A DNA stretch of 64,000 nt, from contig NC_135364.1 in NCBI RefSeq assembly GCF_051622035.1, positions 13,633,501 through 13,697,500 on the forward strand. The letters are read 5' to 3'. Origin of the DNA: Arctopsyche grandis (lineage: Eukaryota; Arthropoda; Insecta; Trichoptera; Hydropsychidae). Numbering within the stretch: the first letter of the stretch is position 1; each line of letters starts with the position of its first letter. This document shows positions 3,469 to 37,403 of this stretch, piece by piece. The notes under the pieces are model-generated. The model was not told the origin of the DNA, made no database searches, and saw only the letters and a list, made by a program, of their open reading frames with translations. The position numbers were made by a program, and so were the translations under genes.

Positions 3469-6400
3469 TTTATGCTATCTGTTCATTTATGTTGTATAAA
3501 TAAATTTAATTTTTTGAAGGCTTTTTTTATACAATTATGTATTGTTTCTGACAGTCTAAAATTGAAATCCTTAAAATTGTGAGGCCCATCTGATATGGCC
3601 TGCATACGTGTCATTAAAAAATATATATGTATTTTAGAATTTTGATAAAAATATTGTCAGTAATTTTTTGAACAACAAAGGTATAATTCATTAACTTAAT
3701 AAAGGAGTATTTTTACAATGTCTAAATTTAGTGGTAGTACAGATCAGAATTTTGTGTCGTTACAATATTCAATCATTTTTATTGTTAAAAAAATTTGATA
3801 TATCTCTTCCGCATTTTCATTAATATCTTTATTTAATTTAATGATATTCAATTCAATACAGTAAGAATTCGCTCAAATTTTATCAATCAATAAACCTGGT
3901 TCTTCAGGCTTGTTAGTAAATTTGCTTTTGATTTCAGAATGAATTGTTCCAAAGGCGTAAATCGAGAGATGGGTGAATAGGTACATACGTATGTACATAT
4001 ATGTATATACTTATGATTAAACCAAATTTTGTTTCCGTCGAAATTGCGTTGTAGAATTAATTTTGTAATATATATTAATTAATACGACACTTAAATCATT
4101 AATACGATAAATCAATTCGTATTAAAATCTAATTGCGCTTGTGATTTATTTTAACGATGTTTAAAATTATGTTCAAATCTTCATACACGAATTAAAATAA
4201 AGAAAAATCAATTGACATATAATGGGAAATCCTGAAATGCAGTTTTTAATGTAAATTTCTAGTATAAACCGGTTCCTTCAGTGACTTAGCAACACGAATT
4301 TTCTAGATTATTGTAATCGGATTCAAATATTTTACTCATTGACGTATTTAAATGCGTATTTTCCTCATTTTACTATACATATTATTAATATTTATTATAA
4401 ATTTATCTAAAAAAAATCATGTGCGCATTATAAAATGATATTGATGATTATAATACAGTACAAGTACACTCAAAAATAAACTGGAAAATACAGAATTTCA
4501 ATCTTTGTATACCAAAATACATATTATATGTATATATGTATGTACTTACAATATATGTATATATAAAAAAATTATATGTTTAAAAAAGGTAAAATATGAT
4601 ACGTATAATATCGGTCTCTGTGACGGGTCTGAATGTGAAACGCCCGAAAACGCAAATATCGAAAGGCAAAGATCGAAGATCGAAAGATCTTAAGTCGAAA
4701 GATCAAAAAAAAGGGTGCATGGTAAACGGTACATACTCACGTATATACTAACTTAATTTGCGCGAGCAGGATACAACAGGAACAAGAGGAACAGGTTTTT
4801 CCTCCCGTATTCTGCGCGCGCACATTAATACGGGAGGAAAAGCCTGTTCCTCTTGTTCCTGTTGTACCCTGCTCGCGCAAATTAACTGAGTATGTACCGT
4901 TTACCATGCACCCTTTTTTTTTGATCTTTTGACTTAAGATCTTTCGATTTTCGATCTTTGCCTTCCGATATTTGCGTTTTTGGGCGTTTCACATTCGGGC
5001 TCGTGACGGAGACCGATAATATACATATAATATGGATATATTATTTGTGACATTTAAAAACAAATTAATTCTTTGGAGATTTCATTGTATGTATGTATTT
5101 ATAATTTTAAAACTCTTCATTAAGATTCAGGCGACTAGTATCGGCGACAGACCGGACTTGTAATTTGGCGATGTAAACAGGTTATTTCTAACTAAAAGTT
5201 GAAATTTTCACAAATATCGTACAAATATTTCTTGATCAAGGTCATTCTCTTTGATATTAAGTTGCCTGATGACGGTGCAGTTTTTGTGATATGGTTCTGG
5301 TTCCACAACTCGTTTATGTCCAATTTTCAAACTCAAATCGAAAATGTTTGCGTATGTATTTGATTTCTATATGTATTATAACGTCATGGCTAGCTTAATA
5401 TCCTTACGATTTGAGTTTGATTTAAAATTCAGTCTTTAACTACATAAAAGATGTAAAATACATAAAATGTGTAAATATGTAATTTAGTAATAAAGAACAC
5501 TACACTTGATATTCATATAGAATTATAAGTATACGACTATTTAACTTTAATATTATTTATCTTTAAATCAATTACATTTTTTTTTTGTATTAAAGGTGAT
5601 CCAACTATACTCGGCAATTTGAAACCAGCTCCCGAAACTTTGGTGGCAATTAAAGATAGCATAGATAGTTTTAAGTTCAATGGGTAATTATATACATGTA
5701 TATATTTCACAATTGTTCAAAATTTACCTATTTCTATGTTGAATCTGACTTTTTCTCTACAGATATTCACCGAGCACGGGCTATGTGGAATCTCGTGAAG
5801 CTGTTGCAAAATACAGCAGCTTCACATTTGAAGATGGCAGTAGTTTTAAAGTCAAAGTCGAAGATGTGATCCTTTGTAGTGGTTGTTCTCATGCGTTGGA
5901 CTTATGCATAACAGCAATCGCCTCAGCCGGGCACAATATATTAGTTCCAAGACCTGGTTTTTCAATATATAAAACATTGTCTGATGGATTCGGAATTCAA
6001 GTAAAGTATTATAATTTACTGGTAAGCTTATTTTCATAGCTTGATTTTTATTTTAACAAGTATCTTAATTTTTAATACATAATACTAAATTCATTAATTT
6101 CAGGAAGATGAACAATGGAAAGTGGATTTACGTGATCTTGAGAATAAAATCGATGAGAAAACATCAGCCATAGTAATTATCAACCCTTCGAATCCATGTG
6201 GATCTGTTTACACGAGTAGTCATTTGAAAGACATATTGTCAGTGGCAGAGCGCAATTTTTTGCCAATAATTGCCGACGAGATATACGAACATTTGGTGTT
6301 CCCAGGTCATAAGTTCTACCCGCTAGCTTCACTTTCCGAAAATGTTCCTATTTTATCATGCAGTGGTATAACAAAGAGATTTCTAGTACCCGGTTGGCGA

Positions 6401-7079
6401 ATGGGTTGGATAATAGTCCACGACAGACACAATGCTTTTTCAGCTAGTGTTAAGGGTGGTTTGATAAATTTGTCACAAAGAATAATTGGAAGCAATACTC
6501 TGGTTCAAGGAGCACTACCTGCTATTTTAGGACACACTCCCCAGAACTTCTTTGACAATGTCATAAACTTAATTCACGTAAGTTAAGCATGAATTGAGTA
6601 TTACATATTAGGATCGCTATTGTTATATAAGATGCATATTTTGTTTTATTTTGTAGAACCATGCTAAAATTGCATTCGATATGTTGAAAAGAGTTAAAGG
6701 ATTAAATCCTATAATGCCAGAGGGTGCTATGTATATGATGGTTGGAATACAAGTCGATCTTTTCCCCAGAATTAAAGACGATCTTGAATTTGTTGAAAAA
6801 TTGATGTCTGAACAATCAATATTTTGTTTACCCGGAAAGGTAAAAGTCTCATCCTCAATATGAAGCATAAATATCGTTTGTTTATGATTGCAATTTATTT
6901 TTCAGTGTTTCAACTATCCAAATTTTATGAGGATTGTGTTGACCGTACCCGAAGACATGTTAAAGGAAGCCTGCCGCAGAATAGGACAGTTTTGCGATGA
7001 TCACGTCTTATTCGAAAATCACATCAAAAATTTTAAGTTAAGTTTGATAGAATGTGAAAATGTTAATGCTATCGGATAA
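2121..7079 (+). CDS. Tat: Tyrosine aminotransferase (PLP enzyme)
   Basis: Six coding exons: 2121-2268, 5596-5683, 5763-6021, 6104-6577, 6657-6839 and 6906-7079, giving 441 residues (human TAT has 454). Role: cytosolic first step of tyrosine breakdown, moving the amino group to 2-oxoglutarate to give 4-hydroxyphenylpyruvate. Visible: [13 protein letters not shown] near the N-terminus, [37 protein letters not shown] and [26 protein letters not shown] holds the PLP-binding lysine and the phosphate-binding arginine. [14 protein letters not shown] lies near the end. An in-frame ATG at 2049 would add 24 residues; I prefer 2121 because [14 protein letters not shown] leads directly into the conserved start. 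Intron 1 (2269-5595) begins with GC, not GT, and its exon ends phase correctly (Gly codon split G|GT). AATAAA is near 7,210. Confidence 0.95.
3079..3466 (-). mobile_element. Helitron-like element with hexamer repeat
   Basis: On the minus strand this runs from a TA-rich 5' part through a GT-rich stretch (GTCTGTGTGTGTGTC) to a 3' end in GGTTCAGCTAG followed by T. It matches the plus-strand copy at 20,233-20,529 over most of its length. The middle holds a (GGGAAC)n-like array at about 3,126-3,197 which creates Asn-Gly-rich reading frames of no meaning. The CTAG 3' end without target duplication fits Helitrons. It lies in intron 1 of the aminotransferase gene. Confidence 0.65.
3393..3465. repeat. 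(TA)n microsatellite
   Basis: About 70 bases of uninterrupted alternating TA next to the 5' part of the Helitron-like element. Confidence 0.95.
4609..5018. mobile_element. Long palindromic foldback element / MITE
   Basis: Two arms of about 195 bases, running inward from TATCGGTCTC and its complement GAGACCGATA, are near-identical inverted copies separated by a short loop near 4,813. The arms include runs related to CGAAAGATC and to AACAGGAACAAGAGGAAC. No coding capacity. It lies in intron 1 of the aminotransferase gene; a transcript through it could fold into a hairpin of nearly 200 bp. Confidence 0.85.
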
Positions 7080-8758: not shown

Positions 8759-8940
8759 GTGATCATTGGTCACAAAAGTCACTAAAATCTCTATAACGGA
8801 ACATCTGGCAGCCGAAAAGTCCATCATAATAACGATAACTATCATACTAACAAAAACTGGAGTGCCAAATATTCCGCATTCGTGGTTTTCATAGCAAAAA
8901 TTGTCTTTGTGACCACCGCAATGTGACTAATAATCCAATT
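8759..8940. mobile_element. MITE of the GGATTATTTCGCAC family (diverged)
   Basis: Shares AAAGTCACTAAAATCTC, GGAACATCTGG and the TACTAAC middle with the elements at 13,072-13,227 and 13,468-13,849. Ends are weakly inverted (GTGATCATTGG... / ...TAATAATCCAAT). Confidence 0.55.
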
Positions 8941-9120
8941 ACTGTCTCACCCACATAAAAATTGCGCTCGGTTATAGGTAGATGTTTGAATTGTTACGGC
9001 CAAAGATGATGAACTCGCGCTGTCAATAGTGTCAATTGGGTGTGCTCGTGCTAATAAAATTAATCGAATTTGTACTTATTTCCGGTTTGATACATATCAT
9101 TGCATTTAGCTGTCGTTAAA

Positions 9121-10325
9121 ATGAGTACTCCCAAAACTGTCGCTAGGAAGTTTAAATGGTCGTTGGACTTCACCCAAAGGTAACTCAATTTTTCCAACGT
9201 CATGACTATTGATTATAAAATTCATATTTTGTCCCAAGTTATTTAGTGCGTGATATATTAAAATCGTTAGTTGTCTTATTGTTACATTGATTTAATGGTT
9301 CAGCCATTTCAGCCTATTATTCACATTGGTTCAAGTCGTTACTAAAATTTGTGTTTTTGATCAAACCTTCTCTCGTAATAATTGATTAAAACATCACAAT
9401 TTCTTAATGAAGCATTAAACGCGAATATTTCAATACCGCCTTACATCTAAAAGCTTTGCTTCAAATTCAGAAATATTGATTCTTTCAATTTTTATTCTAC
9501 TACTGAACATTGTATAGGCTTTAATTTCTGTTATAATTGGGATCTATCTATCTAGAGATCTTCCCTATGAGCCACACATATGTATGTAGTTCGACTCGAA
9601 TGTAGAATATCAAATCGAATATGCACCCAACATGAGTTTGACTATCATTAGACACAATTGTATCCAAATTAAGTCTAGAATAAACATGAATACTCCGATA
9701 AGTAGTACACAAGATGCTTGTTTGTAATCAATTTAGACAATAGTTTGGAAACCAATTCATATTTATTTTGATTTTCTATAAATTGTATGTGGATTATATT
9801 TAGAAATGCCTTTTTTTTAATTTTAATATTTGAAGTTCATTTAATATTTTTTATCGTTTTAGAAATAAAGCTGGAAGTTCCGATATTGCTTCACCACCTG
9901 GATATAATCCTGCAGCAGCACAAAACTACACAGAAATATCAAAAGAGAATGATGCAAACCATCTTATTATTAAAAAATTATGGGATGTGGCTCTCGGTCC
10001 CTTAAAGCAAGCACCGATGAATCTGTTTATAATGTACATGGCTGGAAATTCCATATCGATTTTCCCTATAATGATGGTCGGCATGTTGATTGTGCGTCCC
10101 GTGAAAGCACTCTTCACCACACAGAGTACTTTTAAAATGATCGAAGGCTCTCATGCAGTGTGCCAGAAGTTAGTTTATTTATTCGGTAACATCGTCAATA
10201 TTCTGCTCGCTTTGTACAAGTGTCAAAGCATGGGCCTGTTGCCGACGCATTCCAGCGATTGGCTATTTTTTGTGGAACCGCAGACAAGGTTGGAGTTTTA
10301 CGGGGGAGGAATGGCGCTCTTATAA
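9121..10325 (+). CDS. EMC4: ER membrane protein complex subunit 4
   Basis: Two coding exons: 9121-9179 and 9863-10325, splitting an Arg codon AG|A, for 173 residues (human EMC4 183). Role: subunit of the ER membrane complex, which inserts tail-anchored and multi-pass proteins into the ER membrane. Visible: RKFKWSLDF at the start, then a polar segment, then LWDVALGPLKQAPMNLFIMY, GNSISIFPIMMVGML (first membrane helix) and YLFGNIVNILLALYKCQSMG (second). The end is GLLPTHSSDWLFFVEPQTRLEFYGGG. All of these are family hallmarks. It converges on the STMP1-like gene, with stops only 175 bases apart. AATAAA lies near 10,410. Confidence 0.96.
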
Positions 10326-26721: not shown

Positions 26722-29700
26722 CTATGCGCTTTTTGGACATTTCGCTTTATTTCGATCGATAAACTTCCACAGTGATGTTCCTGTAAGTAGCTGTCCAAAT
26801 CCATACAAAATAGATAAGAAGAAAACAGTCGTTTCCATAATGACATAGTGTGATATGGATGTTCCGATATCCAGCCAGCTTCCTTTATTAGTTATCATGT
26901 GCAAAAACTGAAGTCCCATCAGGTCGGAGTAAATCAATACTATTAAGAATAAATTGCCAGTAGGAGCCTTTAAAAAATAAAATTTTCATTAAAACTCTGT
27001 CAGGCGATGAGTATATCTACTTAATTAAAACAATACGCAAAAGATAAACATACTTTTACAACTAGATTGACAGCGTAAAAAGTGCATGTGACGCAAAGGA
27101 ACGGTATCAAAGTTTTACACAGTATAAGAGCAGTCATCGTAAATGGAGAGAACTGCGCTACGAAACATCTGACCCAATTGGGATCGAATGAATTCACAGA
27201 AGCAATATTTCCAGTACCAAAAAATGCTAAAATAATGTACAAAAGCTGAAATTTGCAATGAAAGAAAATATAATCATCGTATATGTATGTATTCTGCTAT
27301 GATGAAATGAAATTCGCAAAAGGATACGAATATGAAGGATCGTCTAAAGTCATCAGCGTCGAGTTTTCGGTCAATGGGGGTCAATTTGTTGACATTCGTA
27401 GCTTGAATTGCGTTGCCGAATTTGAATTGCGATAGCTGAAAAGCGGAAAAATATATAATAGCATGTTTGTAGAACGTATCTTATAGTTTTTTTAATCAAT
27501 CAATTACCTTTATATCTTTTTGAGTGTTTTGTATAAAGTGTTCGATCGTAAGCCAGCATAGTAGATTTGCAGATAAAATGAGCAGAAAAAATCCTTCGTG
27601 GCTGACAGATAGTAAAATAAAGAATACGGCTAGACTCATATTGATCGAGTGCAACCTAGATATTAGCAAACGCGATGAAAACATCGGCACGATAAAACAC
27701 GCAACTGAAAAAGAATTTATATGTACATATGTATGTGTATATCTGCTTATTATACATCATCAGCCCTTCAATTTTCCATTCCCGTCATCTTATGCATCTT
27801 TCATCTATTAAATATGTATCACCGGTTTACTTCTCTTAAGAAATCAAGCTTCTATTTCTAAAGTACATATGTTAAAGTTGAAGTGTATCTTCCAGTTGCA
27901 ATACATTCTATCTAACCTGGTATAAACTACCGTTAGAATTGAGGTGTATTTTCAGTTGTAATATATTTTAACTAGTTGGAATATATTCCGTCTAACCTAC
28001 GTGTTGATTCAAATGGCGAATTACATTCCAACTGGCCAAAATATATTACAACTGAAATACAGTTCAACTATAAGTTGATACCAGGTAAGATAGAGGTTGG
28101 GTTTTTGTGACACATCTCTCAACTAGTAAATTGAGTTGGAAAGTCACATTCTTGGAGTTATCATAATACGGTACTAATTATATTTATTCGTAGTATCTAG
28201 CAAATATTGACGCATTATTGAATTCCAAAGCATTCGGTAAAAAAAACCGAGGTATCAAAACTCAACTGTTATATTACAACTGGCGCAAATTGTTGAAAGT
28301 GTATTTACGCTTGTAGATATATGTACATATAATTTAATAGTTGAATTGTATTCGAATATGAATGACCTTAAAACGCCAGTAGGAATATATCACAACTGAA
28401 AATACACTTTGACTGTAACATATATATTATAGTTCAAAACAATATTTATTGTTTTTTAAGATCTGCTTATACTAGCACAGCACAGACCGGCAACTGCACA
28501 CAAACAGCACTACGTGTGTATGTGGCGTATACGTAAGAGCAGTACGATCTATTCATGTTATACAGCAGTACATGTCACGGAAACGTATCAAGCAAAACCA
28601 GATTTGACGTCATAGTATATTTTTAATACATATTGAAAATATTGATACACGCAAGCAACATTGCTCCGTATCGTTGCACTCTGTAATGTATATGTGAGTC
28701 GATTTTGCCTTGCGCTCGGCCTAAACAAGTCTGAACGTGGCAAAACGTGCGCTGCTTAATAGTCTGAATAGGAGTAGTCTTTTCTGTTCTCTTCTGTTGA
28801 CGTGTAGTGCTGGATAATATAAATAGACCTTTAATCGTCTTTGAAAAATATAGATTAAACTTACTAGTTAGCATCCACGAAATACATTGAGACACCAATG
28901 GAAGACCTCCTTTAGCCATAAAGTAGTATCCGACAAAATATTTGTTTTGAATTGCTGTTATCATCATCACCAATGGTATAATCATCACACCGTTTTCTCT
29001 CTTACTCTCCTTTCCACTCCTCATCATCGGTAAAGAATGAAGATAGAGGAATATGAATGATGATATGAGCCAAGTCAATGCAGATGCACCACTAAACAAC
29101 AAATTTACATATATTTTAATGTATTTTTATCTGATTATATATTTAAAGTTTTTTACGTACACAAGATGTTTATCGTCTTGTTTGCCGATGACGGGAAGGA
29201 ATGAAAACCCAGCTAGTAAAATGCAAGTGATAACCCATACGATATGTAGTAATATTGGTATTTTGTTCCTATACGAACTGTGCATCGGAAATATAGCCAG
29301 TGCTGTGAGGCCAATACTCAAATAGCCACGATAGAAAAACGACAATATCTAAAATGATCGAAAAGTTAGAAATAAACCTAAAATATTACTTGATCAATCG
29401 AGCAATGCTTACTAGAATAACGATGCCGATTAAATATACACCAATCATGGATAACAATGTGAGCAAGCTGATGAATGTGGAAGAAGATTGAAAATTTTCA
29501 TTCAGTTTGCTGAAATATTCATACCACGACTTCCAAGATAATGCAACTTTCCACCAATGAAATATCGGCAGCGAGAAATAGACATAATACTGAATTGGCA
29601 GTTGTTGAACTGTGGAAGATAATAAGAAATTAAACGACGATAATATATGTATATGTATGTAAGATGTGAAAAATAAGCAACTTGAATGTATTACCATATA

Positions 29701-32700
29701 TTAAGAAGATTGTTAGAACTAAAATTGCTCCGAATACCGAATTTATCATTGCATTAATGTTGAAGGACGTTCTGTAATAGCGACTTTTGTCAATGTGACG
29801 ACGTTTTTCATTTATTTGCATGCCTTGGAGCAATACGGTAAGGAGCCAAAAGATCCATCCGAGAAAATTTGCTGTCATACATTTCAAAAGTATGTCTTGG
29901 TAATAGTTTTGATAGTATTCCGAGCCCGCCAAACAAAGTTGAATCACATTTTTAATTTCGATTATCTGCAATTGTGAAAGAAATTTTAATTACATAACAG
30001 TAGATTGTCATTATTCTACATTATATATGGCTATATTTCTGATTACCGCATCTTCAAATCGCCCCGAGTCGAACTTCTGTTCAATTCGACGGGATCGTTC
30101 TAGGATATCGTCATTGGTTAAGGATTCGAACGGTTTATAGATCAACGCTATGGCACCGTTTTCTACAAGCTGCTTCTTTAAATGAAACTGTGTCAACATT
30201 TGTCTCATGTTCTTGTGATAAAAACTCACTTTGTCTTTGAATGGAACGTTGATATATTCATCGGGCAGTATTCCCTACAAAATAACCAACATTAACATCT
30301 GTGTAAATGTTCTTTATTATTGTATGAAAATTATTTACCACAGAATCGACAGGAATGTCTATTCCAATCAATGTTGCGATTAAAGGACATATGTCTGCTT
30401 GACTTAAATCGTTTTGCACCGGTTGTGGATCTATTGTGCTGAATATAGGAGGGGGGATTCCGGCACCCCAAGCTATGATCGGTGTTTCAGTTTCATGATT
30501 GCTACCGGCACCATGAGAGCCTTTAATACAATTGTTAATCATATTAAAATGTATAATAATATTCAGTGGCGGCTCGCCTATATGGGCTGCGGGGCTACTA
30601 CAGCCCTCCCAGTGTAGTACAAATGCATGCTATTTTTGCCGTCCATATGGGCTGCAGACCTCCCAGTATAGTACATATGCATGATATTTTTGTCTGAATT
30701 TGATCACCGGTTAATCTCTGCAGCCCCCCCACTATGAATTCTCACGAGCCGCCACTGATAATATTACATTTCATACATACATTCTTAGTTGGACACTCTT
30801 ATATTCTTTTGAAATACAGATTGACCACGAGGAGCATTGTCATTTTTGATGGCTTGGTACTCTTGGAAGGGAGAGTCGTGGAGTGGTGGCGATATATCCA
30901 TTCACCTCATAATGGGTCGCCATTTTGTATTCAGTAGCAATGGAACAGTGGTCTATGAAATGGCGAACCACGCGTAACATAATGAAGAAAAAATCACCAG
31001 GCGCTACACGAAGATGGCCAGGATTTAAAATTCAAGATTCAGGGAATACGGACGTCATCTACTGACGTGATTTTTGCTAGATAACGTAAATAGGATTTTT
31101 ATATATATTTATACCAGGAAGGCCTAATAGGTAAACCCAATTGCAAACATGGAAAAAATTCGATATACAACAAAATTTATATAAAAATCAACCAATTCGA
31201 ATTTGAAAGAAACAGGATAGGTTGCCAATTTGGTGGAAATGTTTTAACAATGAAATTCTGATGGGAAAAGATCAGTGGCGGCTCGTCCAAGTGGGCTGTA
31301 GGGCTGCAGCCTTCCAGTATAGTAAATATGCATGATATTTTTTTCGTCTATAAGGACTGCGGGCTGCAAACCATATATGTATATAGTACATAAGCATGCT
31401 ATTTTTTTTTGCATTTGGTCACCGGTATGGTCAACGAGCTACTACAGCTCTTCCACTGGAAATGATCGACCTGGACATAATAACTTCAGACCTTATGACT
31501 AACTAAAAAAAAAGATCCTATACGTATATTTTTAATATAAGAAAAGTCTATCAGAACCATTAGAAAAACTCTTATTATTGATTTCCGACATGGGGCCCCC
31601 TCGAGTAGTCCGGGCCCTGGAACTTTATCCCAGCTCCCCCCCTCCCCCCTCTCATTGGCCCTTTTCATATATCCAAGATCTGGCCAGCAACACTGGGCCA
31701 GGGAATGAACCCATGACCCCTATGTTGATATCTTCTCAAACACGTTATTTTTTTTGAAAATTTGATTGGCTTTTTCAAAAATGACAATGCTAGTCGTCGT
31801 CACTCTGTATTATACTTCATTTTAATGACTTGTAAAGCAGCCCCTGAGAGCGATTTTTTTACAAGGCTTTTATATTTTTTTTTATTTTACCGTTGCCTAT
31901 TAACACTTTGTAATATATTGTCAAGTCTGGATGTTGAGGTATAATATACATACATACAGACATATGTAAATATAATATATATGTTTTATTCTTAATATAT
32001 ATTTTATATCTTAATTATCAAATAGATGATGAACGACTGCATCACTAGACACACAGTTGAAGATTTGACTTAAAAGGACAATGGATCAGAAGAGGAAAGC
32101 ATAGCTGGTGTAGAAATATTAAAATATAAAATTCTCATATTCGTCTGTTCCATTGAAGACAAAAACAAATTATGCAGATAATCTAAAGTAATCAAATTTC
32201 TTAAAATAGGCGGTACTTATTGGTTGTACGGACATATCAGAGTATTGATTATAAACACTTAACCAACAAAAACAAGACAGTTACAAGAATGGCCTCTAGG
32301 TGTCGCAAACAGTTTTAGTAAAGTGACACTACATAACCAGTGATTGACGTTACATCTAACAATATCGAAAACGAATTTTCAAATATTTTTTTTATACATA
32401 CCTACATATTACATGTCTATGAATTTCACATACATATGTTCTGGTGGAGGTCAGTAGTCTTATTGCAAAGAAAATCTCTTCAAATGGATCTTATTTTTCT
32501 ATTATATGCTGCCACATAAACTCTGCAAAATAATTTTCCATGTGTTTCCATGTACCACGATGTTTTATTATAATTATACTGTCACTTTACTAAGCCTGTT
32601 TGCGACACCTAGAGGTAATTCTTGTAACTGACGTGTATTTTTTGTATACGTATATGTGTATACTCGATGCTCGAATGCGCCCGTATAACCATTAAGTATA

Positions 32701-35478
32701 AAATAAGCATATACATATAATGAATCTGCGAACAGTTTGAATCATTTCTGTGACATACCCCAATCAGTCATGCCATGATCAGATGTGAAAACGTAAGCAG
32801 TCTTATTATCGTGCTCGAAGAATTCCTCAATAACATTTTCCATCTCAGCTATTCCGCTATTTACCGTCTTGATATTATCTTTGTAAAGCCTACAAGGAAT
32901 TGAATACCTCAATTATAATGTTTCAAAACTTAATACTAGATAAAATCGAAGCAGCACTAACTTTGAATGGGGTTTATGTGTGTGACCGGCTGTGTCTAAT
33001 CCTAATAAATGCAGAAAGAATATGATCTTATCCTCCTTCAGTTGAGACATCAGCTTGGTATTGTGTCTGGCGTCAGACAAAAACTTATCAACGTGTTCGA
33101 ATACCCACAGGTCTAATTTACTGGTGGAAACCTTTCCAGAGAAGTCTTCCTCTTCGTGACTATACGAGTGAGTATATACGTGATCGCCGCTAGCTCCCTT
33201 TGCGAACATCGGCAGAATGTCGGGGCTGCCCCAAGACCAGGTGTAGCGACTTTGATTGAATACCGAGTCAAATTCTACGGGATTCTCCTTCCATCCTCTG
33301 GTAATAGCCGACGGATCCTCATAGAAACCTGCTATAATTGCTACATGCCCTGGTCTCGATTCAGTAGGAATGCGGGTGTGAGATATACCCCAAGTACCTC
33401 GATTGTTAATGATAGATCTGGAATTTTACAACAGGTGATCAGTTCAAATGGAAATTTATACACGAATGCAATTATCAAATGTATTTTATTGGATGGAAAA
33501 ATGTTTCTTCAAAAGAAATTGAATAGGATTTTAAAATTTCCATTTTACTAGACCACCTAGCGTAATCAAATGAGTGCAAATAAAAAAGGAAGTGAAAATT
33601 GAAAAAAAATAAAATGCATGTTATTAAACTTAATTAAATCAGTTTATTGGACGTAACTTAAATTTTAAACATATATGTTTGTATTATTGTAAAAATTATA
33701 ATTTAACTTTTTTTTTAATTTTAAGTATTTTTTTTTTTAATATCATAGTAATAGACAGATCTTAAAAATATCTTTAACTTAAAATAATCAGATTTGTGCA
33801 AACAATTTTGAAAAGAAAATATACATATTTTCTGAAATAGCTTTATATAATATTACTACTAATAAGTCTTATCTTATTCTATAAATCATTTGCAAAAATT
33901 TCTTAAGTCTAATGTAATTTTTTTTAATGGCAAAAATAATGATCAATTTATTGACTGACTGAGATATTTTCATTGGATCGAACAAGTTCACTTGTTAGAG
34001 CTGCAGCCTTCTGGCTCAGACGTAGCTCTTGATTGTAGCTCATCTTGTTCAGACGTTCCCTTCTCTGCTCTGCAGATTCTTTGAACTGCCGTTTCTGTTG
34101 ATACTCCCTGAGACGAGCCAGTCGAATACGTCTCTGCTCCTCGGTTTCGTTCATCAGTCTCCGTTTTTGATTAATACGCATTTGGCTCAATCGGTGCTGG
34201 CGCTGTTCCTCCGTTTCGTTGCTCAGGCGTCTTCTCTGGTTAATTCTCAACCGCTCCAAACGCCGCTTGCGTTGCTCTTCCGTTTCGTTCAACAACCGTT
34301 GTTTCTGGTATAGGCTTAGTTTCTTTAAGCTCTGAGCACTTTTAGTCCCTGGGCCGTTTTTTCTTCTCCTCCTGTTCGTTTTGTCGTGTTGTTCGAGGAT
34401 TGCGCCCGTTGAAAAATCTATGATTCTTGCTTGCGACGTGTGAGACAAATCGAGAAGGGTGGGTTTCCTGTCAAACTTGTCATGTTCCGTATCATCGTTT
34501 TCGTCGTTCATTATGCCTAAATATTTCAGAAACTCCATTTGACCAAGCTATTGACGTAGGAAATCATAAGTATTTTATTAAAATAAAAAATATCCATTCA
34601 CTTAAATCGGGAATAAATAATAAATTAAAATATAGATACTCACAAAAGTCGGATCATTATATGATATCATAATAACTAATTTAAAAATAACAACTAATCA
34701 AATAAAATGTTTAGGTTTCATGTTGAATGGTTTAAATTATACTGTAATACACTTGATACACTTTCACTGAAATTTATTATTATCACTATTTTCTTGTTTA
34801 TACAATGTTATCGAATGTTATGCTAAAGTTCACTAAGGAAAATTTATAGAAATTTTGAAATTAATCTCGAGTTCTGATTTAGTTATATGTAAATTTACTA
34901 TAAGAAATTTCATTAAGTAACGAGAAGCACGCAAGGAAATCGAACAGATTAGGAAGTTAGTCACATGATGGTTTTGTTTAGAGACACGACAAGTCGATTT
35001 AACGAAGGGCAGAAAAAAAGAACAAAGAAAAGCTGTGGAATACAACAAATGATATGATAAAAAATAATAAGAATAGTAAAATATTAGGCGAGGAGGAGAT
35101 CGGGGAGGGGTGAGGATATGCCGAAGCTTACTTGAGGTGGGGCATCTCGTTACTCTGAATGAGGGTCTCGGCTCGGAGGCCGTCAGCCAAGAAAAGTACG
35201 AGGCGGCGGGCGGGGGCGCTCGGCTCGGCGAGCACCTCTACGAAGCCGGAAGCGGAAGCGGAAGCGGAAACGGAAACGGAGTTAGAGCCACTGCCACTGC
35301 CGCCGCCCACGACCGGCGAGCGGAAGTAGATGTCGAAAGCGGCGGCTAGCATGAGCGCGTGCAAGAGGCAGCCCCACGCCACCAGCCTGGCGCCCCCACC
35401 GCCGCCCCCGCCCCCGCCCCCGCCCCCCGCCGCGCCACTGGGCTCTTTGCCCCTGCGTCCCCATCCGCGCAACATCAC
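26722..35478 (-). CDS. PIGN: GPI ethanolamine phosphate transferase 1
   Basis: Thirteen coding exons on the minus strand: 35132-35478, 32962-33417, 32759-32889, 30339-30520, 30047-30274, 29695-29965, 29413-29609, 29161-29348, 28865-29091, 27508-27704, 27328-27435, 27054-27245 and 26722-26967. All are in phase, 989 residues (human 931). Role: adds ethanolamine phosphate to the first mannose of GPI anchors in the ER. Visible: signal-anchor helix then [21 protein letters not shown], the metal-site Asp of an alkaline-phosphatase-like fold; [63 protein letters not shown]; then a polytopic domain with [15 protein letters not shown] and [15 protein letters not shown]. Exon 1 is unusually GC-rich, with a run of 12 Gly and a Ser-Gly-Val-Ala lumenal insert. 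Intron 1 hosts the STPR gene. Confidence 0.97.
27895..28090. mobile_element. Palindromic element with TTGTAATATATT arms
   Basis: Arms around TATTTTCAGTTGTAATATATT and its inverse AATATATTACAACTGAAATAC, with AACTAGTTGGAATATATTCC between, form a long imperfect hairpin. Similar words recur to about 28,430. In an intron of PIGN. Confidence 0.6.
28463..28826. mobile_element. MITE family shared with 43,448-44,141, copy 1
   Basis: Left end CTTATACTAGCACAGCACAG, right end (inverted) TTATATTATCCAGCACTACA. Internal segments ACAGCAG(T/G)(A/G)CATGTC, GTATCAAGCA, GCAAGCAA, CTCGGCC and AGTCTTTTC are shared with the copy at 43.4 kb. Non-coding. In an intron of PIGN. Confidence 0.7.
30564..30757. mobile_element. 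hAT MITE, CAGTGGCGGCTCG family, copy 2
   Basis: 194 bases; ends CAGTGGCGGCTCG and CGAGCCGCCACTG; perfect flanking ATAATATT (30,556-30,563 and 30,758-30,765). Inside the long PIGN intron 30,521-32,758. Confidence 0.92.
31098..31725 (-). mobile_element. Diverged SINE, split by a hAT MITE
   Basis: The tail (ACCAGGAAGGCCTAATAGGT) is at 31,110. Body words GAAATTCTGATGGGAAAAGATC then GACCTGGACAT lie on either side of the hAT copy. A box B-like GGGAATGAACCC is near 31,700. Older and more decayed than the copies at 10.8 and 19.2 kb. Confidence 0.6.
31273..31458. mobile_element. hAT MITE, CAGTGGCGGCTCG family, copy 3
   Basis: 186 bases from CAGTGGCGGCTCG to ...CTTCCACTG; the right end is more eroded than in the other copies. 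Flanks GAAAAGAT and GAAATGAT, an 8-base duplication with one difference. It splits a SINE, so it is younger than that SINE copy. Confidence 0.85.
31726..32277. other. PIGN intron 3, unassigned part
   Basis: AT-rich, no recognised feature. Confidence 0.35.
32278..32630. mobile_element. Foldback MITE with about 50-base inverted ends
   Basis: Left end CAGTTACAAGAATGGCCTCT, right end inverse CAGTTACAAGAATTACCTCT. Both continue as AGGTGTCGCAAACAG and TAGTAAAGTGACA. The middle is AT-rich. Located in a PIGN intron, ending 129 bases before the acceptor-side exon at 32,759. Confidence 0.82.
33948..34538 (-). CDS. STPR-repeat protein nested in PIGN intron 1
   Basis: Single uninterrupted ORF of 196 residues on the minus strand, the same strand as PIGN, inside PIGN intron 1 (33,418-35,131). 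An acceptor-like AATAG lies 13 bases before the ATG, so a 5' exon is possible. Residues 1-80 are acidic then basic ([27 protein letters not shown]). Residues about 84-175 are four tandem repeats of exactly 23 residues with core NETEEQRxxRLxxLRxNQ, the fourth diverged ([14 protein letters not shown]). This is the STPR (score and three) repeat, known as a DNA-binding helix in silkworm fibroin-modulator-binding protein FMBP-1 and vertebrate ZNF821. Likely a nuclear DNA-binding protein by family. Alternative: similar ETEEQR repeats occur in proteins linked to mobile elements, so a domesticated or transposon origin is possible. Confidence 0.8.
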   Translation of the reverse strand: MEFLKYLGIMNDENDDTEHDKFDRKPTLLDLSHTSQARIIDFSTGAILEQHDKTNRRRRKNGPGTKSAQSLKKLSLYQKQRLLNETEEQRKRRLERLRINQRRRLSNETEEQRQHRLSQMRINQKRRLMNETEEQRRIRLARLREYQQKRQFKESAEQRRERLNKMSYNQELRLSQKAAALTSELVRSNENISVSQ

Positions 35479-35743
35479 CCTTTAGCATTCGCCAACGCGT
35501 CCCCCGACTGTCACGGACAATCGATACACTATTGACAGAAGGCAGACAGACGGCACGGCCCTAGCAACTACATCTACGACCTCAATCCATCTCAGACACG
35601 CCTTTATTAGTAGTTTATACATACATAGATCTGAATATTATTAATATGTCAACGATTAAATACGTAACAACACAATTGTAGGCGGGGTAGGTATGTTGTT
35701 GACCGTATCCCAGCCTAACGAAACACTGTTGTGCTTGTTTTAA

Positions 35744-37160
35744 CCCTTTGACTGCTACAACAACGATAAATCGTTGTTTTGAAATCGGCGAAGATTGCTA
35801 CGACGATCGTTGTTGACGTCATTAATTGTCGTATTTCAATACTTTCTTTGAGCCACCAGCGCATCAGTGGCACGAAACATTTTTTTTATATACGTATTTA
35901 TATTTATTTTTCAATCAAGCTTTATAAATATTTATCAATTTTTTAAATAAAAGCTCTTCAATTTCGGGTTCATCATCAAAGTAAATTTCGGGTTCGTTGT
36001 CAATGTCATATAAGGAGTTATTACTTGGGAATTGATTATTATCGATAAATTCATTTTCAGAATCAGTAGAGCTGCTGATTTGTCGAGTTCCTCGGCGAGG
36101 AGCTATTATTTCGCTTTCATCACTTTCACTGTCCGATATCATTTTGCAGAGTTAAAATAAATGGCAAAAAACAATAGAAATCCGCTTTCAATTATATAGG
36201 TCACGAGACGTCACGAATTCATGCAATCAATCAAATGCAACTGAAATGCATACAAAATGTTTATGATACATGTTGAAAAATTATTTGATTATTAGAAACT
36301 TCGCATCCTTGTGTGTCTTGCTCACACGTACACAATTAAAACCAAGAAAGAAAGAGAGAGAGACCGCTACCTGTTTCGAATATATCGCATGTTGTAAGGA
36401 TACATCGATATCTAAAAATAGATTATTGAAAAGAATAAAGCCTCGGAAAACAATCGTCAAAACTTATTTAGTGTTGTAATGAACGATATTACGCGCGTCT
36501 TTATGCAGAGGGCGTGATATATCGTTATTCTTCCAAAGAGTCAAGTTAGGTGGAAACGTGGACTAACCTTGGGGTAGTTGTATTAATGTATATAGTCTGG
36601 GAGGTTCCTGACTGCAAGTCGTGTGCGTTGATAACAGCTTCTCCAGAAGCTGGCCCTGTGGTTTCGTCACAGCAGCGGGAGGGGGAGGCAGGAGACAAAC
36701 TCCGTACTGCCTCGTGTGGACACAAGATGGCGATCTCTGGGCGTCTCTGAAGGCGCTCGGCGGAGATGCTGGAGATGGAGAGGTCCGTCCCGCTTGGAGG
36801 CTGGCGAAGAAGAGACCACGTCTCGATCCTTCTCGAGACGGGTAGTGTGTTTCGCGCGGTAAAGTAGTTGGTGCCAACCTAAAGGTTACCACCGCTACCA
36901 ACTTAAGGGACACTTGGGAGAACGTCGCGTTACAGTGTATATATGTAGGTATCTCTTTCGCACGCACGCATGTAAAAGCAAGACAGAAAGAGAGAGCACG
37001 AGTCCACGACTGCTTCTTAAAAATGTATATAAAGTATTATAAAAATTACGAGGCGAAGTAAGTATGTAAAAAAAAATATTATATTTATTTTTTTTCAAAA
37101 TAATTACAAATGTTAGCATTTTTCGCTTGGACGTTGAAAAACCTCGTAGCAGCCAAAGGG
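35744..37160 (-). mobile_element. piggyBac-like element, internally deleted
   Basis: TTAA on both sides (35,740-35,743 and 37,161-37,164). Inverted ends CCCTTTGACTGCTAC and CCCTTTGGCTGCTAC. On the minus strand 35,915-36,142 encodes MISDSESDESEIIAPRR followed by an acidic stretch, the kind of N-terminus found on piggyBac transposases; nothing of the catalytic domain follows. 1,417 bases. Inserted in the LTR fossil, so younger than it. The 36,500-36,900 part is GC-rich and unlike the rest; origin unknown. Confidence 0.8.
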
Positions 37161-37198
37161 TTAATAAAGTTTTATTGTTTGCCTAATTATTGTACAAA

Positions 37199-37403
37199 GG
37201 TATTATATTTGGGCAAAAGTATGTCGTTCAGCGGTCTCTGGATATGGTAGAGTGTCACTGGCTCGGCATTCGGCTATGTTCAGAAGGTCTCTGGATGCGG
37301 CAGTGTGTTGCTGGCTCGTCGTTCGGCTATGTTCAGAAGGTCTCTGTATGCGGCAGTGTGTTGCTGGCTCGGCGTTCGGCTATGTTCAGAAGGTCTCTGG
37401 TCT
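37199..37403 (+). repeat. 53-base tandem repeat within the LTR fossil
   Basis: Nearly three copies at 53-base spacing (37,252, 37,305 and 37,358), with core GGCTATGTTCAGAAGGTCTC. Length is not a multiple of three, and the reading frames across it are not conserved. Confidence 0.85.

Follow-up and report, generated by a model that had tools for sequence, protein, structure and literature searches.

An FMBP-1-like STPR repeat reading frame within intron 1 of PIGN in Arctopsyche grandis (Trichoptera)

PIGN intron 1 and the reading frame within it

The window analyzed here is a 64,000-nucleotide stretch of the A. grandis genome (C10:13633501-13697500, in an assembly of 475.7 Mb and 189 contigs). 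It includes exons of PIGN, all on the minus strand, and an intronless open reading frame (ORF) that encodes an STPR repeat protein and lies within the first PIGN intron (Table 1). Joining PIGN exons 1 and 2 at the GT...AG boundaries of intron 1 produces a continuous frame in which MPHLK is followed by SIINNR, and the joined exons matched the Pfam family Phosphodiest with an E value of 3.9e-7. The reading of these two exons as PIGN is also based in part on their likeness to the PIGN sequence. Among five later frames that were scanned, three matched Pfam PigN (E values of 2e-24, 6.2e-7 and 4.5e-6). When PIGN frames were scanned singly against Pfam, none of the three produced a match at an E value of 0.001.

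Table 1. Features of the STPR ORF and of its host gene (positions are those of the window)
Feature	Coordinates	Strand	Basis
STPR protein ORF, intronless, 196 amino acids plus stop	33948..34538	-	Pfam STPRs; PDB 5d23 (FMBP-1)
Acidic stretch, codons 10-25 (D+E 7, K+R 3)	34464..34511	-	charge counts
Basic patch, codons 50-66 (K+R 7, D+E 1), includes NRRRRKNG	34341..34391	-	charge counts
Eroded half repeat, codons 66-84	34287..34343	-	alignment to FMBP-1; model helix 66-83
Four full 23-residue STPR repeats, codons 85-176	34011..34286	-	repeat register; model helices
Possible poly(A) signal AATAAA, overlaps the stop codon	33947..33952	-	sequence
AG nine bases before the ATG, possible acceptor for a 5' exon	34548..34549	-	sequence
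PIGN intron 1, 1714 bp, donor GTAAGC, acceptor TTCCAG, phase 2	33418..35131	-	exons rejoin in frame
PIGN coding exon 1, to ...NEMPHLK	35132..35475	-	spliced exons 1-2 match Pfam Phosphodiest
Open frame holding PIGN exon 2; exon starts at 33417, 3' end unplaced	32919..33417	-	in-frame junction
Later PIGN exons, several frames, ends unplaced	26725..29989	-	Pfam PigN

The initial annotation had described an intact ORF of 196 codons nested in intron 1 of PIGN and sharing the strand of its host, and these claims held: the frame is uninterrupted, the whole of it is contained in the intron, and both genes are read from the minus strand. About 6% of Drosophila genes are nested, frequently on the strand opposite to that of the host, according to the available text of PMC3786989. 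The same-strand nesting of the ORF is therefore less common, though not strange.

The ORF matched Pfam STPRs (PF21107) with an E value of 5.5e-27 and a score of 94.4 bits, where the curated cut-off is 27, which is far beyond chance. The Pfam scan found no family in the ORF besides STPRs, and the NCBIfam scan found no family. A sequence search of the PDB returned a single entry with an E value below 0.01, namely the STPR domain of the silkworm protein FMBP-1 (5d23, E 2.7e-14). The G+C content of the ORF is 46%, compared to 20% in the intron sequence on one side of it and 28% on the other. Comparison of its codon use with that of the host exons gave a score of -0.04, which was equally high in 75 of 500 random synonymous versions; AT-rich synonymous versions outscored the ORF (mean of 0.09), and the test gave no help.

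A single-sequence AlphaFold2 model of the ORF product (mean pLDDT of 74.1) has helices at residues 66-83, 87-106, 110-129 and 133-195, three of which begin at residues 87, 110 and 133. Block means are 87-96 across residues 81-190, and the first 60 residues are disordered. Foldseek found no matches of this model in the PDB, 5d23 included, and because of this VIA-align had nothing to compare. The blank result is perhaps due to the model being a run of helices.

A piggyBac-like element of 1425 bp (35740-37164) is located just upstream of PIGN. Each of its ends is TTAA, and its terminal inverted repeats agree at 14 of their first 15 bases. It includes an acidic ORF of 75 amino acids (35915-36142, minus strand) that had no match in Pfam and that presumably resembles the N-terminal part of piggyBac transposases. 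A 53-bp tandem repeat occupies positions 37226-37400. Its translation resembles frames found on another contig (L008 6531-6945), and it is therefore probably a dispersed repeat.

The repeat array and its relatives

The four full repeats are in phase, each of 23 residues, and belong to the STPR family, as had been proposed; three of them were also detected at the DNA level with a spacing of 69 bases. The NETEEQR core that had been ascribed to all of them is present in three, but the fourth reads KESAEQR. The proposal that three of the four are nearly identical did not survive the comparison. Pairs 1-2, 1-3 and 2-3 share 16, 13 and 11 of their 23 residues (45, 35 and 35 of 69 bases), and repeat 4 has 11, 11 and 9 of 23 residues in common with repeats 1, 2 and 3. 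Just seven of the 16 residues that are identical in repeats 1 and 2 are specified by the same codon. Over the six pairs the mean DNA identity is 0.56 and the synonymous divergence (pS) goes from 0.56 to 0.97, with a mean of 0.81, near saturation; the mean pN is 0.34 and pN/pS is between 0.28 and 0.75. Since the repeats are dissimilar and their synonymous sites are near saturation, these values argue for an old array held by selection on the protein rather than for a fresh expansion.

An eroded half repeat, which spans approximately residues 66-84 and was absent from the initial annotation, precedes the four full repeats. It corresponds to the second half of the 23-mer and has neither the glutamate at position 4 (E4) nor the arginine at position 9 (R9). 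Both residues, which are described as critical in FMBP-1, are present in all four full repeats. The register was set by the residue numbers in the available text of PMC4821344, according to which the first and ninth residues of FMBP-1 repeat 1 are E99 and R107.

A protein search of the genome (476 Mb) with the ORF hit three loci with four matches in total, of which one was full-length. The matches at the other loci, C13 (45% and 41% identical) and C6 (39%), were confined to the repeats, and their alignments with the ORF had no clear N-terminal similarity. In a search for the STPR family, in which all 29 candidates were scored, at least seven matches were above the cut-off at no fewer than four loci (C6, C13, C9 and the ORF itself on C10). 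The three loci besides the ORF are divergent, and the C9 array is more uniform than that of the ORF (mean DNA identity of 0.79 and pS of 0.40, over 15 pairs). Dozens of identical copies, which the initial annotation had named as the finding that would speak against a host gene, were not found in the genome. The 5' flank of the ORF (34539-35130) matched only itself in a DNA search; as this search leaves out very common words, the uniqueness of the flank is not proven.

The other STPR loci have their own settings. At C13 (L008 4415-5032, minus strand) a seven-repeat ORF of 206 amino acids is found between zinc-finger-like frames at 8801-9709 and 764-1789, on the same strand; it may be a further case of an STPR exon that is nested on the same strand or alternative, the zinc-finger reading having been made by eye. 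The STPR frame at C6 (L007 4820-5266, minus strand) is preceded by the acceptor-like sequence CTTTCAG and is therefore probably a last exon; a 308-amino acid frame (5993-6916) is located upstream on the same strand. The 235-amino acid ORF at C9 (L018 4576-5280, plus strand) carries an STPR array of another style, with at least six uniform repeats of the RAAETTEQRQARLEKQQIRQ type. Elsewhere, a 377-amino acid frame of tandem basic repeats of the MTNQRAMRSKRSDEDYKVKEQ type (L024 5233-6363, minus strand) is found directly upstream of a Helitron-type frame of 836 amino acids. Two phage-type viral contigs from IMG/VR, L005 and L006, encode a short repeat-like stretch, at 4962-5273 in L005, where it is part of a short basic protein, and near 5001-5195 in L006. 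L005 was rejected as a relative (PF21107, E 0.43), and its likeness to the STPR repeats appears to be due to chance or convergence.

Comparison with FMBP-1

The available text of PMC4821344 describes Bombyx mori FMBP-1 (PDB 5d23, 5d2q and 5d2s) as a protein of 218 amino acids in which an acidic region is followed by a hyper basic region, the four STPR repeats and a C-tail. Its target site is ATNTWTNTA, and its DNA-bound form is stiffened by salt bridges between E4 and R9. In the same source, the stable component was lost upon R9A substitution in repeat 2, 3 or 4, and the mildest mutant was that of repeat 1. R9 is present in all four FMBP-1 repeats and E4 in three, with an alanine at position 4 of repeat 4; E4 is thus not strict even in FMBP-1.

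The ORF product has STPR repeats with R9 and mostly E4 like those of FMBP-1, is of similar length (196 versus 218 amino acids), and has an acidic part, a basic patch, repeats and a tail in an order that matches the published layout as far as the available text gives it, the N-termini being compared by charge layout rather than by sequence. The two proteins differ in that 42 of 88 repeat residues are identical, the counterpart of FMBP-1 repeat 1 is the second half of a repeat only, and an extra full repeat is found where FMBP-1 has its C-tail. The nesting of the ORF in PIGN may be a further difference.

Ungapped comparison of the ORF with FMBP-1 produced one standout register (score of 181, with the 42 identities) followed by another at 144. 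In the former, the eroded half repeat is paired with FMBP-1 repeat 1, the one with the mildest R9A mutant. No register stood out at C13 (144, 142 and 131), and the registers at C6 (141 and 124) and C9 (111 and 102) were weaker. The colinear pairing of the ORF with the four FMBP-1 repeats ranked first among the 24 orders. With four of the five repeats assigned in each of the 120 possible ways, two non-colinear assignments that use the last repeat reached 149 and 148, compared to 148 for the colinear one. Whole-sequence phmmer scores against FMBP-1 were 62.1 bits for C6, 56.6 for the ORF, 47.3 for C13 and 28.2 for C9. However, the value for C6 is the sum of two stretches that align to overlapping portions of FMBP-1 and of which the better has 39.7 bits, while the ORF aligned as a single stretch with 56.4 bits, the best single stretch among the four loci. 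The order of the repeats suggests that the ORF could be orthologous to FMBP-1, which we regard as a lead and not as a result.

Origin, expression and significance of the nested gene

The interpretation that we favor, with a probability somewhat below 0.8, is that the ORF is a host gene, situated in intron 1 of PIGN and read from the same strand as PIGN, and that it encodes a small, nuclear, DNA-binding STPR protein of the FMBP-1 type. The initial annotation had left the choice between a host transcription factor and a recent domestication. The host side of that choice is favored by the single full-length match, the divergence of the three other loci, a 5' flank that matched only itself, the old repeats and the FMBP-1-like architecture, while recent domestication is disfavored in that the genome search found no near-identical copies. 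Recent capture of a mobile-element gene, for instance a Helitron gene, followed by its insertion into the PIGN intron would be compatible with the 16 matches to Helitron-type domains listed for the genome and with the more uniform repeats of C9, an array that we take to resemble the repeats of Helitron proteins. Nonetheless, we consider such a capture highly improbable. It is opposed by the match counts of the ORF and its flank, by the near saturation of synonymous sites in its repeats, and by an FMBP-1 match far better than that of the C9 array (56.6 versus 28.2 bits). In addition, among the 16 matches listed none to Helitron_like_N is on contig C10, and no spaced STPR motif pair was found in three stretches that hold five of these 16 matches. 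A literature search for papers that mention STPR together with Helitron, each as a whole word, found none. A somewhat less remote prospect, though still an unlikely one, is that a multi-exon STPR gene was retrocopied into the intron long ago and that the copy became a functional gene there; this concerns the origin only and is compatible with the host gene interpretation. The coding part of the ORF is intronless, whereas the C6 STPR frame has an acceptor-like sequence ahead of it, and a run of eight A is found 21 bases past the AATAAA. However, this run is short and is located in a flank of 20% G+C, and a close parent is missing: the C13 and C6 loci have the low, repeat-only identities given above and no clear similarity at the N-terminus.

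A different proposal concerns expression, with the ORF being an alternative PIGN exon or belonging to a bicistronic transcript of PIGN, in which case expression of the STPR protein would be driven by the PIGN promoter. The shared strand and the AG nine bases ahead of the ATG are consistent with it. However, splicing of PIGN exon 1 to this AG adds seven codons (NLVKWSF) followed by a stop and therefore makes no fusion protein, and the ORF has an ATG of its own; we consider this proposal quite improbable, although a leaky or internal start may be used on a transcript spliced in this way. A bacterial-type promoter scan was uninformative for this genome. Sites of the FMBP-1 type (ATNTWTNTA) occur seven times in the 3.6 kb around the ORF, compared to an expected 3.5, and 15 of 200 shuffles reached seven, which is not significant. 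In mammals, H13 and Mcts2 form a nested pair with same-strand orientation. The available text of PMC13309782 indicates that transcription of the nested gene can shorten the host transcript. The likeness to the A. grandis locus consists in a gene nested within a host gene; for the mammalian pair, the features reported (PMC13309782) further include imprinting, a promoter at an intragenic CpG island and an influence on the host transcript. One can conceive of a regulatory pair in which STPR transcription or the intronic poly(A) signal truncates PIGN transcripts in a certain tissue; a DNA-binding factor would thereby tune GPI-anchor synthesis in cis, and the arrangement would be kept across insects for that reason, but we hold this to be very doubtful.

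If the ORF is a host gene encoding an FMBP-1-like protein, it would probably be expressed from its own promoter and ATG as a short independent transcript ending near the AATAAA at the stop codon. The basic patch and the repeats would carry the protein to the nucleus. On DNA, the repeats would become a run of helices, each starting at a NETEEQR motif and stiffened by an E4-R9 salt bridge, that could grip AT-rich sites, and the acidic N-terminus may recruit partners.

ZNF821 is a human zinc-finger protein. It shares the STPR domain with the ORF product and is counted as an STPR relative in the available text of PMC4821344; it differs in being a zinc-finger protein by name, while the ORF has no Pfam family but STPRs. 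Among the matches listed, the STPR literature is centered on FMBP-1, and ZNF821 represents the human side. The titles and abstracts among the matches listed (FMBP-1 with Hymenoptera, ants or PIGN, and PIGN with nested genes) did not describe an STPR gene within PIGN. The ORF is an ordinary and well-formed addition to a small DNA-binding family, at an unusual genomic address. Being small and intronless, and with E4 and R9 retained in all of its full repeats, this STPR gene is a simple subject for studying the role of the family in settings other than the silk gland; its location within PIGN would allow same-strand nesting to be tested.
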